Shown here one piece after another: positions 1,973-56,446 of a stretch of 64,000 bases of DNA (position 1 is its first letter; every line of letters starts with the position of its first letter). The notes under the pieces were generated by a model. It worked only from the letters and a program-made list of their open reading frames with translations. It ran no database searches and had not been told where the DNA came from. This stretch comes from Pukyongia salina. Lineage in GTDB: Bacteria; Bacteroidota; Bacteroidia; Flavobacteriales; Flavobacteriaceae. Location: positions 1,922,001 to 1,986,000 of the forward strand of contig NZ_CP027062.1 in NCBI RefSeq assembly GCF_002966125.1. The letters are read 5' to 3'. A program made the translations under genes and the position numbers.

Positions 1973-4690
1973 TTACTTATGACGTAACTCGATGAGCAGC
2001 AAATTCACTTCCAGAAGTGCTTTTGTATACATCTGGTTGAAGACAGTAAAATGTTTCTTAGCCTCTTCAATTCCTTCTTTCTTGATGATATTGCTTTCAA
2101 TTTGCTGCAAATGGTGCCCGTGAACGGTCATGCCCAGATTCATAAAACTGGATTTCATTTTATGGGCCAGCGAACTCGCCCTCGAATAGTATTCCCTCTC
2201 AATACAGGTTCGTAAACTCTTATGATCTTCGGGGGTGGTTTGGATAAATACTTCAAGTAAGGAAGAGATGAACTCTTCGTCATTATCGAAGGTTTCCTTT
2301 AGTAAATTCATATCCACACTTCGGCTCTCCTTTTCTTTTATTTCTGAAGCGGATGTTACCATTTCCGACTGTAATTGAGGTTCGAATTTCTCGTCGGAGA
2401 TAAGCCAGAACAGCACTTCCTTCACTGCTTCTTCGCTTAATGGTTTAGTGAGGTAGAAATCTATTCCCGCTTTAATGGCACTTTTGCGTGCCTCCGGGAA
2501 TACATCTGCCGAACAGGCGACGATCGGTACTTTTTTAATGGCGTCCTTATTAGAATTTCGTATAGACGAAATAGCTTCTATCCCGTTCATTACTGGCATG
2601 TGCATATCCATCAGGATGAGGTCGTAATTAGATTTGTCCTGTTCGAATATTTCCACGGCCTCCTGGCCATTTTCGGCTATATCCACACTAACATTAAGGT
2701 TGTTGAGGAGTTGCCTGATATAGAACTGATTCATTTTATTATCCTCTGCAACCAAAACTTTCAGCCCTTCGAGTTTCTTATCTTGCCTTACGTAAGTCTT
2801 GATCGAGTCGTTCAAACTCTTAAGGTTACTTCGCTTGAACGGAAGAACAAATTTAAATTCGGAACCTTTATTTACCACACTGGTTGCATTGAAATCTCCA
2901 TTCTGCATATTGATGAGTTCTTTGGTGATGGCGAGCCCTAGACCAGTTCCGGCGATCTCCGAATCCTCCCTATTCTCAACCTGGAAGAAACTATCGAAGA
3001 TCCTTTTGAGGTTTTCTTTAGATATCCCTATCCCTGTATCTTTTACCTTGAATTGCAGTTTTATTTCATTTTCGTACTCGGCCAGTAAACTTACCGAGAT
3101 GCTTACTTGTCCTTTTTTAGTGAATTTTATGGCGTTACCAATAAGATTGGTGAGGATCTGGTTGAGACGGTATTGATCACCAATCACTATGTCTGGGATA
3201 TTCTCATCCATTTCTGAAATTAGTTCAAGCCCTTTTTCACGTGCTTTTATTTCGAATCCGTCTGAAAGATTCTCAACCACCTTACGTAAATTAAAGTCGA
3301 TGGATTGGAGAGTAAGCTTTCCGGCTTCAATTTTTGAGAAATCCAGGATGTCATTTACAATGGAGAGCAGATTTTTAGCGGAGAAGTCGATACCTTCTAT
3401 ATTCTTGCGCAGAGTTGAATTATCATCTGAAGCTCCTTTTTTAATGATCTCGGAGAGTCCAAGGATCACGTTAAGAGGGGTTCTAATTTCATGACTCATA
3501 TTAGAAAGGAAAGTAGACTTCGCCTTTGCGGTACGTTCTGCATTCACCTTTGCTTCGCGAATGGCCTCCATCATGTGTTTTTTATGACTAATATTCTTAA
3601 GGAAAACACTGTAAGTGGACTTATCGCTAGTATAATTATTAGTGATCGAGATCTCGTAATCGTCGTTTACACCATCGATGTTCGATATAATGGTCTCGAT
3701 TCGTTTTCCCAGGATCACGCTGGGGATGGAAGAATCCACCCGATTGATGTCCTGAGATAATCCGCGGTTAATTTCCTGGGGTAAAAATTCCCTTAGGTTA
3801 TGTGATTGAAGTTCAGATGGGCTCAACCCAAGAATTCGCAAAGCGGTATTATTACCCTGTATGATACGTAGGCGATCATCTATTAAAAGAAATCCATCCA
3901 GCATATTCTCAAGTACAGCCTTGTACTGAGATACATTTAATTGGTTAGGATTAACCTGTTCAATTTTATCGGTTACGGCGATCAGTTTTCTAACCGGTGT
4001 TCCTTCGGGTTTATTTTCCTCGCTTGGAACAAGGTCTTTAACGATCATCAAGGATTTTAGTGGTTGGTATATTTTACTGAATGTTGTGAAACTATCGTAA
4101 TAGTAGTTTTCTATATCTCTGGTGCCAACTACTTCTGCAAGTTTCGAATAGATCTCCAGAGAAGCTTCTTTAAGTCTGCGTAAAAGATTTATGCGTTCAA
4201 CGATATTGAATTCGAAGGTATCCGGAAATTGAATGTTAATGCGTTCAAACCAATCCTTAACCAATTCGTTTTTACAATTGTCCCGCAAAATTCGTTTCAG
4301 AACAAATTTCAGAAAGAGACGAGAAAGGTGCACACCCTGGTTCTGTTCGCTTTCCAATAGAAGTTTGAAGGTAACGGTGTTTAGGAGTTCGGGAAATTTA
4401 CCCTGGATATCCAATCGTAATTGATCCCTTGTAGATATATATCTGGGATCTTTATCTATAAGGTATTCTTCGAATTTAAAATAGTACTGTGCTAATTGCA
4501 GATCGGCGAAGAATGGATCTTCATCAAATTCTAATTCAGACAGTTGTGTTTGTAATCCGGAAAGGTGGATCGAATTGGAGGCAAGATCATAGAGATGTAC
4601 CAGGATGTGTCTCCTGGGATCGGTACATACCTGCTTATCAACTTCCTTTGCCTCGTTCTTTACGAACAGACGATTTATAAGAGTGTTCAT
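1973..4690 (-). CDS. Soluble hybrid sensor histidine kinase (PAS-HisKA-HATPase-REC-HPt)
   Basis: About 905 residues from the ATG at 4690; the reading frame is open upstream to a TTG at 4726, but the ATG is the more likely start. The order is an N-terminal helical region of about 245 residues that I do not recognise, a PAS domain (about 250-370), HisKA with phospho-acceptor His400 in SHEIRTPLNVILG, HATPase_c with N box NLIGNAIKFT, G1 DTGIGI and G2 GTGLGLAI, a receiver domain with Asp695 in LMDMHMPVMNG, and a C-terminal HPt domain with His843 in LAHKMKSSF. No membrane segment or signal peptide is visible, so it should sense a cytoplasmic cue. The phosphorelay His-Asp-His is complete, but the final response regulator is not next door. 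Confidence 0.93.
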   Translation of the reverse strand: MNTLINRLFVKNEAKEVDKQVCTDPRRHILVHLYDLASNSIHLSGLQTQLSELEFDEDPFFADLQLAQYYFKFEEYLIDKDPRYISTRDQLRLDIQGKFPELLNTVTFKLLLESEQNQGVHLSRLFLKFVLKRILRDNCKNELVKDWFERINIQFPDTFEFNIVERINLLRRLKEASLEIYSKLAEVVGTRDIENYYYDSFTTFSKIYQPLKSLMIVKDLVPSEENKPEGTPVRKLIAVTDKIEQVNPNQLNVSQYKAVLENMLDGFLLIDDRLRIIQGNNTALRILGLSPSELQSHNLREFLPQEINRGLSQDINRVDSSIPSVILGKRIETIISNIDGVNDDYEISITNNYTSDKSTYSVFLKNISHKKHMMEAIREAKVNAERTAKAKSTFLSNMSHEIRTPLNVILGLSEIIKKGASDDNSTLRKNIEGIDFSAKNLLSIVNDILDFSKIEAGKLTLQSIDFNLRKVVENLSDGFEIKAREKGLELISEMDENIPDIVIGDQYRLNQILTNLIGNAIKFTKKGQVSISVSLLAEYENEIKLQFKVKDTGIGISKENLKRIFDSFFQVENREDSEIAGTGLGLAITKELINMQNGDFNATSVVNKGSEFKFVLPFKRSNLKSLNDSIKTYVRQDKKLEGLKVLVAEDNKMNQFYIRQLLNNLNVSVDIAENGQEAVEIFEQDKSNYDLILMDMHMPVMNGIEAISSIRNSNKDAIKKVPIVACSADVFPEARKSAIKAGIDFYLTKPLSEEAVKEVLFWLISDEKFEPQLQSEMVTSASEIKEKESRSVDMNLLKETFDNDEEFISSLLEVFIQTTPEDHKSLRTCIEREYYSRASSLAHKMKSSFMNLGMTVHGHHLQQIESNIIKKEGIEEAKKHFTVFNQMYTKALLEVNLLLIELRHK

Positions 4691-4874
4691 TTGGGGGCTT
4701 CTTATAAGGAAGGAAAATTCCTTCAAAAGCCAATGTAGTATATTCCTACAAAAAACCTAATACGATTCGATGTAATGCAAATAAATCCCTATGAAAGGGC
4801 ATTTTATTACATTAATTCAGGTAAGAAAATTACTTGTCTACACCTAATTGACTGTACACTAGCGGTTAATTAAA

Positions 4875-7774: not shown

Positions 7775-8605
7775 ATGAAAACTTATGTAAAGAAAACGGC
7801 CCTAATTTCTTTTGTTGCCGCGGGATTATTGCTATTTAGTTGTAGTAAGAACGACGATAGCGGCGACGATGGTTCGGTTAATTTTTCTGCTGAAAATACA
7901 GCCCGTGCCGCCCAGGCGGATAACGTGGTGGAAGGATCTTTTAATATAATGGAAAGCGGCTATGTGGAAGTGGAAGAAGGAAGAAGTAACAGTATTTCTC
8001 TATTTCCAAACTGCACCGTGATCACGATCACTCCCGATGGGAATGGCGGAGGAACGATCCTTCTTGATTTTGGCGATGGATGCCAGTTAAACAATGGTGC
8101 CCAGGTTACGGGAAGTATCCTACTGGAATACGGCCCCATAGATGGAGGAACCAGAACCATTAATTATACCTATCAAAGCTTTACCTACAATAACAATGCT
8201 GTTACCGGAGGCGGTGTGATCGTGCGAACTATTGCCAACTCAAACGGTAATCCACAATCCACAGCCACCGAAAATATCACCGTAAGTTTCCCAGGAACTG
8301 AAATTACTGCCACCCGTGAAGGAACACGTACTATCGAATGGGTAGAAGGTGTTGGAAGCGGTACCTGGGCAGATAATGTTTTCCATATCACCGGAAACTG
8401 GGATACAGTGTTTACTAATGGTTTTAGCCGTAGTGGTGAAGTAACAGAAACCCTGGTGAGAAAATTATCATGTATCTACCTGGTAAGCGGGGTACTTGAA
8501 ATTCAACAAGAAGGTTTCACCGGAGCGATCGATTGGGGAAATGGTAGTTGCGACAACCAGGCAACCCTGATCATTAACGGACAAGAATACCCTATTTTAT
8601 TATAA
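7775..8605 (+). CDS. Hypothetical lipoprotein, tandem paralogue 1
   Basis: A 276-residue predicted outer-membrane or periplasmic lipoprotein. The N-terminus MKTYVKKTALISFVAAG runs into a lipobox ending LFSC, with Cys23, then an acidic linker (KNDDSGDDGS), as usual for exported lipoproteins of this phylum. The mature part is beta-rich and has four further Cys in FPNC, FGDGC, LSC and GNGSC contexts that are conserved in the next gene. I do not recognise a named domain. It is about 45% identical by eye to the following protein over the C-terminal 170 residues, and the two genes have the same orientation and terminator stem, so they are a tandem duplication. Function unknown. Confidence 0.85.
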   Translation: MKTYVKKTALISFVAAGLLLFSCSKNDDSGDDGSVNFSAENTARAAQADNVVEGSFNIMESGYVEVEEGRSNSISLFPNCTVITITPDGNGGGTILLDFGDGCQLNNGAQVTGSILLEYGPIDGGTRTINYTYQSFTYNNNAVTGGGVIVRTIANSNGNPQSTATENITVSFPGTEITATREGTRTIEWVEGVGSGTWADNVFHITGNWDTVFTNGFSRSGEVTETLVRKLSCIYLVSGVLEIQQEGFTGAIDWGNGSCDNQATLIINGQEYPILL

Positions 8606-8758: not shown

Positions 8759-9592
8759 ATGAAAAAAAGTCTATTTATTTCAGTTTTAAGTTTGTTTGTC
8801 TTTAGTATCGTTTTTACCTCCTGTAGCAAGGACGAAGCAGGAGATATCGAAACGAACAACAGTACGGATCTCGTCTTTGTAGAAGAGTCCAAACAGGTCT
8901 CTCAGGCCGAAGCTACTTCCGATGGGGTTGTGAATATGTTGGAAACGGCATATGCAGAGATCGAAGAGAATGCCGGACGTTCCAACAGCCTGTTCCCGGA
9001 TTGTGTTACGATCACTATTAGCTCGGAAAATGGAGTAACCTTCGTTACTTTAGATTTTGGATTTGGATGTACCCTTCAAAACGGTGCAGTTGTCTCGGGA
9101 ATAGTAAATATAACTTACGGCCCGATTCAAAATGGAACCAGAACCATTACATATACCCTTGAGAACTTCACGTGGAATGACATCGATGTTGGCGGTGGGG
9201 CGACTATTTTCAGAGAGCTGAACAATGCCAATGGAAACCCTCAGTCTACGGTTCATGTTGATCTTCAATTGAGTTTCCCTGGCGGACTGGTACTTCAGAA
9301 GGATGGAACCAGAGTTCGCGAATGGATAGAAGGATTCCACAGCGGGTCTTGGCTAGATAATGTATGGCTTGTAACCGGCAACAGGGAAGTGGTTTCCAAT
9401 ACCGGATACACTCACTACGGTATCGTTACAGAAGCCTTGAGAAGAGAGGCAACCTGTCCATATTTTGTAAGTGGAATTATCGAGATCACAAGAAACGGAA
9501 ATCAGGGTACCCTCGATTTTGGAAACGGTGATTGCGACAATATTGCAATCCTTACGGTCAATGGCGTAGAATATACCATTTACCTGGACTAA
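8759..9592 (+). CDS. Hypothetical lipoprotein, tandem paralogue 2
   Basis: A 277-residue predicted lipoprotein with signal MKKSLFISVLSLFVFSIVF and lipobox ending FTSC (Cys22), followed by an acidic linker. It shares with its upstream neighbour the Cys positions, NGxxVxGxxxxxYGPI, GTRTIxYT, NGNPQST, SFPG and the C-terminal FGNGDCDN with a final short beta strand. Both have an N-terminal stretch of mixed Ala/Glu helix around a two-residue Gly-Arg-Ser-Asn start of the core. No enzyme motif is visible, and the domain is unassigned. It is separated from paralogue 1 by a terminator, so it is probably transcribed alone. Confidence 0.85.
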   Translation: MKKSLFISVLSLFVFSIVFTSCSKDEAGDIETNNSTDLVFVEESKQVSQAEATSDGVVNMLETAYAEIEENAGRSNSLFPDCVTITISSENGVTFVTLDFGFGCTLQNGAVVSGIVNITYGPIQNGTRTITYTLENFTWNDIDVGGGATIFRELNNANGNPQSTVHVDLQLSFPGGLVLQKDGTRVREWIEGFHSGSWLDNVWLVTGNREVVSNTGYTHYGIVTEALRREATCPYFVSGIIEITRNGNQGTLDFGNGDCDNIAILTVNGVEYTIYLD

Positions 9593-53734: not shown

Positions 53735-53938
53735 TTTTTTTTCTGAAAAACCCCTGCATCAGATACAGGAAAAACCCCCTTGATTACAGGTCTTTTCCAC
53801 CTTTTTTCCACCTATCGTTTTTGTGTAATCCCTTTGATGTCAAGGCGATAGGCTAATCTTACATTCGCTCCGAAGACTTGGCAACTGTATTTCAGTAATT
53901 TATATCTAATTTTACGTAAACCCTTAAACAATAAGAAC
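53735..53938. other. Intergenic region with inverted repeats
   Basis: No gene is seen in this 204-base gap. It contains two near copies of GAAAAACCCC about 25 bases apart, a potential stem CCTATCG (53811-53817) with CGATAGG (53846-53852), an inner CCTT/AAGG pair directly against it, and a near -7 box TAATTTTA (53907-53914; last base A instead of G). It precedes the four-gene signalling operon and may hold its promoter and control site. Confidence 0.45.
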
Positions 53939-54424
53939 ATGAAAAAACCACTACGATTAATAGTATCGACCCTTTCGGTTATTGTACTACTGCTTAGTGT
54001 GGTTTCCTGTGAAATTAAAAAGGAAGCTCCTCAACAAGCCATCAGCCTAGATGAAGCTGATAATCTCGAAGAAGAATTTAAACAAACCAGGTCCAGGATC
54101 CTGGACAGTGCGCTGGGATTTCAGGATACCAGAGACTTTTGGTTCTCCCTTGACACCCTGAAAAAATATATCGAATATGTGGAATACGAAGGAAAGAAGA
54201 TGGGAAAAGAGAATTTGGGAATCCGAATTTATTTTGCAGCTTACCCTCAACAAAGTAATTACCCCGATCCGGGATATTCGACTGTTTTCTTAGTACCAAC
54301 CGCCGAGGCTGCACCTAACCCCTTAAAACAAGGTTTCTTTCCGATGCCAGTGGAAAATGAGGCCCTGGACAGCTTGAAAGCGCTAAACTTTTCTCAGGGA
54401 GGAAGGCCGCCTAACGACCTATAG
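53939..54424 (+). CDS. Hypothetical lipoprotein of the signalling operon
   Basis: A 161-residue predicted lipoprotein with signal segment and lipobox SVVSC (Cys24), then EIKKEAPQQAISLDEA. The mature part includes ARGYF-like helices around FWFSLDTLKKYIEYVEYEGKK and a Pro-rich end (YFAAYPQQSNYPDPGYS). I do not recognise the family. It is followed after 5 bases by the 7-TM gene and, without a terminator, by a kinase and regulator, so it may be the external sensor part of that system. That role is inference. Confidence 0.78.
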   Translation: MKKPLRLIVSTLSVIVLLLSVVSCEIKKEAPQQAISLDEADNLEEEFKQTRSRILDSALGFQDTRDFWFSLDTLKKYIEYVEYEGKKMGKENLGIRIYFAAYPQQSNYPDPGYSTVFLVPTAEAAPNPLKQGFFPMPVENEALDSLKALNFSQGGRPPNDL

Positions 54425-54429
54425 AAAAA

Positions 54430-55071
54430 ATGAAAATAGCGTATTTATTTTTCATTCCACTCTTTCTGGAGTTATTGGCGGCGATCGTCGCAACCATTAC
54501 CTATAGAAAGTATTCCGGCTCGAATGAAAAATATTTTCTCTATTTTCTTTGGTATACCTTCCTGATAGAGATCACCGGTACCCTTATTGGCTATGCTTTC
54601 GAAGCGGATAATTACTGGGTGTATAATGGTTTTATCATTTCTAGCTTCCTGTTCTACTTTTACTGGTATTACAGTATCCTAAAAAGAAAACGTTTCAGAC
54701 AGACTATTGTGATTTTTACTGCGGCTTTCTTGTTAGTTGCAACCTACAGCCTTATTTACGAGGATTGGTCTGCATATCATAGCTATACATTTTTAACAGG
54801 TGCTTCATTTGTGCTTGTACTTACAGTGTTTCATTTCTATAAATTATTGAACAGTGATGAAGTTCTCATTGTAAAACATAAACTTAGTTTTTGGATCTCA
54901 ACTGCCCTGTTGCTGTTTTATATGGGGATGATCCCACTAATGTTCTTAACTGTATACGCAGATCTTAACGATATTAGCTATCTCATTATAATTTTGAGCA
55001 TGAATCTCATTTTGTATGGTTGTTATATAATTGGTTTTCTATGGACGAAAAAGGAGTACAATCGTTTCTAA
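54430..55071 (+). CDS. Seven-helix integral membrane protein
   Basis: A 213-residue protein with about seven strongly hydrophobic segments (around residues 4-24, 38-58, 63-85, 92-110, 117-138, 150-173, 178-202), short loops and no signal peptide. No known catalytic or cofactor motif was found. Its 3' end overlaps the downstream histidine kinase gene by 31 bases in another frame, indicating translational coupling. The neighbourhood suggests a separate membrane sensor for the kinase, which lacks its own sensing domain. Confidence 0.8.
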   Translation: MKIAYLFFIPLFLELLAAIVATITYRKYSGSNEKYFLYFLWYTFLIEITGTLIGYAFEADNYWVYNGFIISSFLFYFYWYYSILKRKRFRQTIVIFTAAFLLVATYSLIYEDWSAYHSYTFLTGASFVLVLTVFHFYKLLNSDEVLIVKHKLSFWISTALLLFYMGMIPLMFLTVYADLNDISYLIIILSMNLILYGCYIIGFLWTKKEYNRF

Positions 55072-55811
55072 TAATCTTTTCGGTGATTGCCTTTTTGTTA
55101 GCGCTCACCGTGATCTTATTGTTTGCTATCTTTCAGAAACGGAAGAATAAATTATTACGTGAACAGCAAGATGCCGAAAATCGTTACCGTGAAGAGATCA
55201 TTGAAACCCAAATTGAGATCAAGGAAGAAACTTTACGAAACATCAGTTGGGAATTACACGATAATATAGGGCAGCTACTCACGCTATCCAAGATCCAGTT
55301 GCAAAATGCAGATGACAAGCCGGAGCGTATTCAGGAGGCTTCAGAAACCATTGGACAGTGTTTGGAAGAACTTCGCAGTTTGTCTAAACTTATAAATCCG
55401 GATACTTTCAGCAATCTCTCATTAGTGGAAGCTCTCCAGCTGGAAATGGAACGATTTAACAGGATGAAATACCTCAAGGCGAGTCTCAGTTTCAGCGAAG
55501 CAGATTTCTCCCTCGATAACAAAGTAGAATTGATTATCTTCCGTATGCTTCAGGAATTTTTCACCAATACAATAAAACACTCCAAAGCAGACGTTCTAAA
55601 AGTAAACGTCGAATTTAAAGATGGTGTACTGAAGATCGAAGCAAGTGATAACGGAATTGGTTTCGATTCCGAAATGAAGAATGCAGACGCCGGCATTGGC
55701 CTGATGAATATTAAGAATCGCGCAACCCTAATAGGCGCAGATGTAGAAATACTTTCTAAAGAAGGGGAGGGAACACATTTCAAACTAACCTATAAAAAGA
55801 ACGAATTATGA
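55041..55811 (+). CDS. NarX/LiaS-type sensor histidine kinase without its own sensor domain
   Basis: A 256-residue kinase. The ATG at 55041 overlaps the 7-TM gene; the frame also opens at 55020. One N-terminal membrane helix (residues 8-30) leads into a coiled coil and the HisKA_3-like dimerisation domain with phospho-acceptor His73 (ISWELHDNIGQLL). A HATPase_c domain follows, with FRMLQEFFTNTIKHSKA (N box), IEASDNGIGFDSE (G1) and AGIGLMNIKNRATLIG (G2). The arrangement fits the pairing with LuxR-type regulators, and the regulator gene follows with an ATGA overlap. Confidence 0.93.
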   Translation: MDEKGVQSFLIIFSVIAFLLALTVILLFAIFQKRKNKLLREQQDAENRYREEIIETQIEIKEETLRNISWELHDNIGQLLTLSKIQLQNADDKPERIQEASETIGQCLEELRSLSKLINPDTFSNLSLVEALQLEMERFNRMKYLKASLSFSEADFSLDNKVELIIFRMLQEFFTNTIKHSKADVLKVNVEFKDGVLKIEASDNGIGFDSEMKNADAGIGLMNIKNRATLIGADVEILSKEGEGTHFKLTYKKNEL

Positions 55812-56446
55812 GTTATTCGGTAGTTGTTGTTGATGACCATAACCTTTTATCGCAAGCTATAGGGGGTTTAGTGGACGGATTTGATAAGTTCTCGGTGCTG
55901 TATACCTGCAAGAATGGCCAGGAATTGATCGATAAACTAAAGAATCCCAGGAATATTCCGGATATAGTCCTTATGGATGTAAATATGCCTATTATGAATG
56001 GCATAGAGGCGACTTCTCATCTATATCGCAACTTTCCGCAAGTGAAAATACTAGCCTTGTCCATAGAAGAAGATGAGGATACCATCCTGAAGATGTTAAG
56101 AGCAGGGGCGAGGGGATATCTCATGAAGGACGTAAAAAAATCTGAATTACAGGTGGCGTTGTTAGAACTTATCGAGAAGGGATATTACCATACCAATACA
56201 GTGGCAAAAGTTCTGGTGGATTCGTTGTCTGGCAAGGAACGAAGTATAGATACTCTAAAAGAGCGCGAGATCGAATTTATTCGTCATGCCTGTACCGAAA
56301 AAACCTATAAGGAGATTGCCGATGAAATGTTCCTGAGCCCGAAAACCATCGAAGGCTACCGAAACTCTATCTTCGAAAAACTGAATTTGAGAAACAGAAC
56401 AGGACTCGTGATATATGCAATCAAGCACAAGATCTTCGTGCCTTGA
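55808..56446 (+). CDS. LuxR/NarL-type response regulator
   Basis: A 212-residue two-component regulator. The receiver domain has the acidic pair DDH at 9-11, the phospho-acceptor Asp57 in IVLMDVNMPIMNG, and Lys in YLMKDVKKSEL. The DNA-binding C-terminus is a LuxR-type helix-turn-helix (EIADEMFLSPKTIEGYRNS, NLRNRTGLVIYAI). It is coupled to the kinase by an ATGA overlap and converges with the O-methyltransferase gene across 3 bases. Confidence 0.95.
   Translation: MSYSVVVVDDHNLLSQAIGGLVDGFDKFSVLYTCKNGQELIDKLKNPRNIPDIVLMDVNMPIMNGIEATSHLYRNFPQVKILALSIEEDEDTILKMLRAGARGYLMKDVKKSELQVALLELIEKGYYHTNTVAKVLVDSLSGKERSIDTLKEREIEFIRHACTEKTYKEIADEMFLSPKTIEGYRNSIFEKLNLRNRTGLVIYAIKHKIFVP

Follow-up and report, generated by a model that had tools for sequence, protein, structure and literature searches.

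For want of a known input, many bacterial kinases are described as sensor-less. An operon of Pukyongia salina, located in the 64,000-nucleotide stretch of DNA analysed here (hereafter, the window), raises this question in a particular form. The kinase gene is preceded by genes for a lipoprotein and for a protein with seven membrane helices, and it can be asked whether a receptor has been divided among separate chains that feed a single kinase.

A conserved four-gene operon

The four genes, denoted S, T, K and R, occupy positions 53939-56446 of the window:

53939..54424, + strand: S, a small lipoprotein of 161 amino acids, with the lipobox VVSC (Cys24), an alpha-alpha-beta-beta domain and the conserved C-terminal tail NxGxGGxPP
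54430..55071, + strand: T, a seven-helix membrane protein of 213 amino acids, N-out/C-in (AlphaFold2 model, charge bias)
55041..55811, + strand: K, a histidine kinase of 256 amino acids with one N-terminal helix, HisKA_3 and HATPase_c (Pfam)
55808..56446, + strand: R, a NarL/LuxR-type response regulator of 212 amino acids, receiver and GerE (Pfam, NCBIfam)

The sequence-only reading had described this locus as a signalling unit of a lipoprotein, a seven-helix protein, a kinase and a LuxR-type regulator, and this description is borne out: all four ORFs are in place, the lipoprotein gene comes first, AlphaFold2 gives seven long helices for the product of the second gene, and the kinase has one membrane helix and no sensor domain, with only HisKA_3 and HATPase_c above the Pfam cut-off. 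The 31-bp overlap of T and K that had been pointed out is also present, counted from the ATG of K at 55041, inside T; the ORF list has a longer version with a TTG start at 55020. The K and R genes overlap by 4 bp.

S, T, K and R are present, complete and in this order, in 75 of the 80 named loci. Three of the five exceptions stop at a contig edge after T, one (L138) stops after K, and one (L128) contains copies of S and T, with no K in the available DNA of the locus. Of 77 T-K gene pairs in the window and the named loci, 71 overlap, and in 41 the overlap is exactly 31 bp; duplicates were kept where the two fetched locus sets share sequences (e.g. L035 and L082). The genes evolve under purifying selection: compared with the relative L075, dN/dS is 0.028 for S and 0.036 for T, K and R being saturated at synonymous sites, and compared with L073, it ranges from 0.007 to 0.033 across the four genes (0.031-0.033 for K and R). 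The low dN/dS values, the retention of the T-K overlap and the gene order in the named loci jointly indicate that the four-gene arrangement is beyond chance. The overlap and the adjacency of T and K would fit translational coupling and a T-K complex.

K and R carry the features of the HisKA_3/NarL class of two-component systems, namely HisKA_3 and HATPase_c with H, N and G boxes, and a receiver with GerE. In K, only about 7 residues precede the single helix, and H73, N176, D203, G205 and G207 are invariant in 28 aligned sequences. The best NCBIfam match of K is UhpB, a match (3.4e-26) that falls well short of the cut-off of the model and covers only the last half of its 499 positions.

Elsewhere in the window, inspection by eye revealed a tandem pair of similar lipoprotein-like genes (7775-8605 and 8759-9592) and a large hybrid kinase with a receiver and an Hpt-like C-terminus (1973-4726).

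Distribution of S and T

With the single T protein of the window as the query, relatives were detected in 92 of the 149 Flavobacteriaceae genomes, that of P. salina included; by profile, 98 of the same genomes have T and 96 have S. Every one of the 131 counted S genes (138 S profile matches minus seven second pieces of one gene) adjoins a T gene: 129 have a same-strand T within 1.5 kb among the T matches listed, and the other two (in genomes G010 and G122), checked separately, are T-adjacent as well. The listed T matches form 123 clusters, of which 104 are single, 14 double, 2 triple and 3 quadruple, and only four of these clusters come without S. Two of the four are at contig starts (G015 and G124), one (G038, locus L180), with T, T and K, is at a contig end, and in one (G049, locus L181) T is genuinely alone.

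Across 295 genomes of the class, T was detected in 51 and S in 12. At 19 class-level loci (L183-L201), four of them from the family of P. salina, a HisKA_3 kinase invariably adjoins T and a NarL-type regulator is present in 15; S is recognized by the profile in 12, and most of the others have unrecognized small genes ahead of T. In a phylum-wide sample, T occurs in 42 of 247 genomes, three of them outside the class. The flanking genes, in the loci listed among 13 and in a set of 20, suggest no shared function.

The P. salina genome contains two further copies of the system (L072 4853-7318, and L071 5505-7680 with the small gene at L003 1045-1455), in both of which S lacks a signal peptide. The more distant of these two copies has a CPPxxC tail.

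The two orphan families

The AlphaFold2 model of T, built with 90 sequences, has a mean pLDDT of 89.4 and a pTM of 0.86, and consists of long helices at residues 3-23, 34-56, 62-83, 87-110, 118-140, 152-176 and 181-205, with a short one at 143-150. In every alignment row (90 of 90 and 60 of 60), lysine and arginine favour the C-terminus and loops 1, 3 and 5, which implies the N-out/C-in topology. Pro169, Gly202 and Phe203 do not vary in alignment A5, and conserved polar residues are few.

Neither T nor S could be assigned to a Pfam or NCBIfam family, alone or by scanning aligned members, which yielded nothing or scattered weak matches in one to five members. For T, there is no convincing sequence match in the PDB, no plasmid match was found, and the one weak PHROG match has no assigned function (E 0.0098); PADLOC gave no match that would link the operon to defence. 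When the T model was compared with known structures using VIA-align 2, nearly all of the 50 matches listed were GPCRs (LYCHOS/GPR155 included) or microbial rhodopsins, with Z of 10.6-12.7, below the level of about 13 under which the tool advises caution for helical bundles, over about 190-207 of the 213 residues. Foldseek gave no match at E≤0.001 (best E 0.47). Because the Z-scores stay under the caution level and Foldseek returned nothing significant, these matches support a receptor-like arrangement of the modelled helices, not kinship. The retinal-binding lysine of microbial rhodopsins sits in helix 7, and any lysine in the helix 7 core is found in only 6 of the 90 T rows, so that a retinal pigment of the microbial rhodopsin type was rejected.

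The predicted structure of S (pLDDT 89.2) is a small alpha-alpha-beta-beta domain, followed by a variable linker and then by the conserved Pro-Pro tail. No PDB chain matched S convincingly by sequence, and a known fold was not found by Foldseek (best E 0.61) or VIA-align 2 (best Z 3.0), which does not amount to a demonstration of a new fold. Among 123 distinct S proteins, 60 have a strict lipobox, 46 have a hydrophobic N-terminus without a lipobox and 17 have neither, according to a hydropathy rule used in place of a signal-peptide predictor. About two of the 17 look like start or threshold errors, leaving about 15 of the 123 without a signal, and, mapped on the T tree, the signal state switches 11 times or more. 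The signal-less S proteins do not sit easily with a constant location on one side of the membrane: some systems have the domain in the periplasm, others apparently in the cytosol. Some operons (L065-L068) have two S-T pairs ahead of one kinase, with a signal on one S and none on the other.

T and its kinases

The linkage of the kinase to T was traced with a K profile in 35 genomes, hand-picked from T carriers. Of the 39 kinases detected at E<1e-90, 38 start within about 215 bp after T or overlap it, adjacency being judged by eye; in the sole exception (G034), S-T and K are on different contigs. The next match has an E-value of 1e-44, and eight weaker kinases with E-values of 1e-45 to 1e-40, three of which are also short, are outside this count. 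A kinase standing alone, which the sequence-only reading had named as evidence against a split receptor, was thus not the pattern encountered among the close relatives of K.

The partner of T can change. The 40 regions fetched first include 22 with S-T-K-R, 10 with S-T-K and no R, five with a LytS-type kinase (four with LytTR), two that are kinase-less, and one in P. salina itself (L071) with T, K, R and an S-like gene. For the swapped partners tested, Pfam confirmed PF06580 and LytTR. In a quick tree of 127 T proteins, in which many deep forks are open, the six T proteins with LytS partners form one clade (SH-aLRT 99) nested among those with HisKA_3 partners. Furthermore, two to four tandem T genes can precede one K. 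Given the LytS/LytTR swap within one T clade and the presence of up to four T genes before one K, S-T looks like an input that acts in trans.

Wide occurrence of T without the kinase was the other observation that had been named as contrary, and it is seen in part. In the same tree, 21 of the 26 kinase-less T proteins form one clade (99), again nested among those with HisKA_3 partners. The 15 kinase-less S-T(-T) loci (L060, L069, L216-L224, L226, L228, L229 and L233) belong to one clade, all adjoin the same gene, which we take to be rho-like, and 14 are also near a gene that is presumably rpsT-like. In three genomes of this group (G001, G032 and G080), the K profile found no close K relative at E≤1e-40. 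Judged from the tree, kinase-less S-T is a derived minority, and T can persist without K. The proposal of a receptor split into chains that feed one kinase therefore holds in part: co-occurrence, gene overlap, kinase swap and multiple T genes per kinase are as expected of S-T acting as a detachable input, and the kinase-less S-T clade is at odds with it.

An element upstream of S

The region upstream of S contains an element of the form AGGGG-N5-6-CCCCT, with an A-rich centre that includes a conserved AAA, often doubled. The window has two such candidate sites:

53759..53784, + strand: candidate regulator-binding site 1, core CAGGAAAAACCCCCT (PWM 22.9 bits)
53783..53808, - strand: candidate site 2, its centre 24 bp from that of site 1 (PWM 17.0 bits)

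The element model was derived from the whole first set of S upstreams, among which 83 of 123 score above 8 bits, compared with 21 of 369 simulated sequences. In-sample, the two sites are the only matches of at least 14 bits within the 64 kb window; of the matches of 18 bits or more in the 1.22 Mb of the 80 named loci, 62 begin the approach to S at a distance of at most 300 bp upstream and 12 lie elsewhere, several of the latter also being upstream of S, 308-457 bp away. Of 28 pairs of adjacent sites, counted with duplicate loci, 17 have their centres 23-24 bp apart. A model trained on other genera finds sites in 13 of 26 upstreams of the window clade compared with 10 in 350 kb elsewhere, a weaker result than in-sample.

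The occurrence of the element is associated with that of the regulator. Among the training loci, with identical best sites counted once and four contig-end loci (two with and two without the element) excluded, the element is present in 76 of the 95 upstreams of operons with a HisKA_3 kinase and a NarL regulator, the other 19 lacking it within 350 bp, compared with 2 of 22 loci without R (0 of 13 with a HisKA_3 kinase only, 0 of 5 with a LytS kinase and 2 of 4 with neither; Fisher 6e-10, in-sample and with phylogeny not removed). Out of sample, the element is found in 12 of 14 loci with R and in 0 of 18 without (4e-7), distant families included. This table covers loci with a profile-recognized S and excludes L183|67, which has 66 bp upstream; L187|2902, the first of two S genes, with 246 bp upstream and no site; and the training loci L060 and L069, the former of which scores 16.0 despite having neither K nor R. 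The tracking of R by the element suggests autoregulation, and the simplest reading of these sequence patterns is that R would be the protein that binds it.

The same tandem precedes a DUF1801 gene in P. salina (L154 981-1030, at about 377,400) and in L255, L256 and L259, with a single site in L257, among 20 genomes with this gene; L251 is another locus with the element ahead of it, and in L252-L254, from the same genus, no site of at least 11 bits was found. The DUF1801 gene is a candidate regulon member. One strong site lies ahead of a small lipoprotein gene in P. salina (L175, about 994; about 2,764,233) and in L273, of six. The pattern GGAAAAACMC has 30 matches in the P. salina genome compared with 13 for the reversed pattern, most of the others being inside genes or low-scoring. 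The window also has a TACGTA palindrome shortly before S, which was rejected as a regulator site: 10 of 133 upstreams contain it and 10.2 would be expected to.

How the system might work

We propose, with a probability of roughly two in three, that S and T together act in trans as the sensory module of kinases that have no sensor domain, and that R autoregulates the operon. S, which in the window is a lipoprotein and hence periplasm-facing, would combine with T into a sensory module of separate chains; the lone N-terminal helix of K would receive a change in S-T through the membrane, which would shift the balance of kinase and phosphatase activities and so set the phosphorylation of R; and phosphorylated R would bind the tandem element upstream of S, adjusting the operon that encodes it and possibly a small number of further genes. 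Computation supplies the gene order, its conservation, the purifying selection, the modelled helices and topology of T, the missing sensor domain of K, the change of kinase family on one module and the association of the element with R; we infer the S-T-K complex, the direction of signalling and the role of R as the element binder.

The same layout could be read in the opposite direction, with S and T as feedback brakes that push K into the phosphatase state, similarly to SaeP and SaeQ acting on SaeS, and with the sensing performed by K or the membrane. This is possible but doubtful: the layout does resemble saePQ-RS, down to two regulator sites upstream of the first gene in the relevant passages of PMC5083920, and the element is located upstream of S, but the few residues ahead of the K helix leave little to sense with, the 10 first-fetched regions with S-T-K and no adjacent R also lack the element, and tandem T arrays would be odd for a plain brake. 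It is distinctly improbable that T is a membrane protein resembling a transporter or an enzyme and that K reads its state of activity, in the way UhpB does with UhpC; the sub-threshold UhpB match of K is in line with such a role, but no transporter family scores above the cut-off for T and its conserved polar residues are few. Least credible of all is an ordinary two-component operon with two passenger genes. Taken alone, K and R are indeed unremarkable by Pfam and NCBIfam, but S and T co-occur, and they stay paired when K changes family or is absent.

A separate uncertainty concerns the element, which could be a terminator or an RNA leader, its link with R reflecting lineage only. Its perfect versions (A-run, GGGG, CCCC, T-run) look like bidirectional terminators, few lineages lack R, and the tests made no correction for phylogeny. 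We nevertheless consider this unlikely because the centre has a conserved AAA, the tandem spacing is kept at 23-24 bp, and the element is absent in several R-less lineages and present in distant families with R. An RNA leader ahead of S was rejected in its own right: RNA folding in the window is not significant (z -0.78), and there is no Rfam family at the element. The Rfam search of the window gave one sub-threshold match elsewhere (VR-RNA, E 0.18), and among nine loci, the only match was DUF805b RNA (RF02914), away from the element at L105 5157-5196, near the S-T-K-R locus of a Polaribacter MAG.

If S-T is a sensory module in trans, two unnamed protein families would make up a portable input module that recurs across Bacteroidia and has moved between two kinase families, and the candidate binding site would make the output of the system measurable. 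Should T signal as a receptor in trans, it would provide a tractable bacterial seven-helix receptor that is separate from its effector, and a function for two widespread orphan families. A bolder version, which is speculative and rather improbable, is that T represents a deeply conserved receptor class of rhodopsin/GPCR topology that acts in trans on sensor-less kinases of the HisKA_3 or the LytS type, one able to replace the other, with each receptor gated by its own dedicated small S protein whose conserved Pro-Pro tail serves as a tethered or released protein ligand, and with tandem T proteins converging several inputs on one kinase.

Comparison with known systems

In the topology of T, seven helices with N-out/C-in orientation, the likeness is to GPCRs and microbial rhodopsins. 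The 7TMR-DISM proteins (PF07695) are bacterial seven-TM receptors that feed signalling domains; they are single chains and have no profile similarity to T. Membership of T in this family was rejected, PF07695 being absent in hmmscan of 90 T members at E≤0.1 and hhalign giving probabilities of 1.15% and 2.55%. Two PF07695 matches exist elsewhere in the P. salina genome. These receptors are among those named in the relevant part of PMC1592074.

For the T protein of the window, no Pfam family was found at E≤1. LiaF is not known to be a seven-TM protein, LiaS has two TM helices, and the LiaFSR kinase is without a large sensor domain. In Bacillus subtilis, LiaFSR combines an accessory membrane protein with a kinase and a regulator, LiaF being an inhibitor according to passages of PMC3543457.

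The layout had been put forward as one not known as a described system. Searches of open-access PMC papers turned up no description of an S-T-K-R system, and the claim stands to that extent, but SaePQRS and UhpABC are described analogues in the parts of PMC5083920 and PMC4790336 that concern them. Both SaePQRS and the operon examined here have a lipoprotein gene first and a multi-TM protein gene second, with kinase and regulator genes alongside, known here from gene order, and two sites upstream of the first gene, candidate sites in the present case. SaeS has two TM helices, SaeR is an OmpR-type regulator and the gene order is P-Q-R-S, with R before S; here, K is a HisKA_3 kinase encoded ahead of R, and R is of the NarL type with a receiver and GerE. 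In Staphylococcus aureus, SaePQRS consists of a lipoprotein, a four-TM protein, a kinase and a regulator, and SaeP, SaeQ and SaeS form a ternary complex (PMC5083920, in the portion describing the system). The four predicted TM helices of SaeQ contrast with the seven of T.

With UhpABC, the likeness is in the separate membrane protein beside a HisKA_3 kinase, here a matter of layout alone, and in UhpB being the best NCBIfam match of K. UhpC is a 12-TM transporter homologue of the MFS type, unlike the seven-helix T, among whose 90 members MFS_1 is matched weakly in one (E 0.07), and UhpABC has no lipoprotein. In Escherichia coli, the separate membrane sensor activates a kinase that acts with a regulator, as outlined in the pertinent section of PMC4790336. 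By the features tested, SaePQRS and UhpABC are not relatives of the S-T-K-R system, but they are systems that work similarly.
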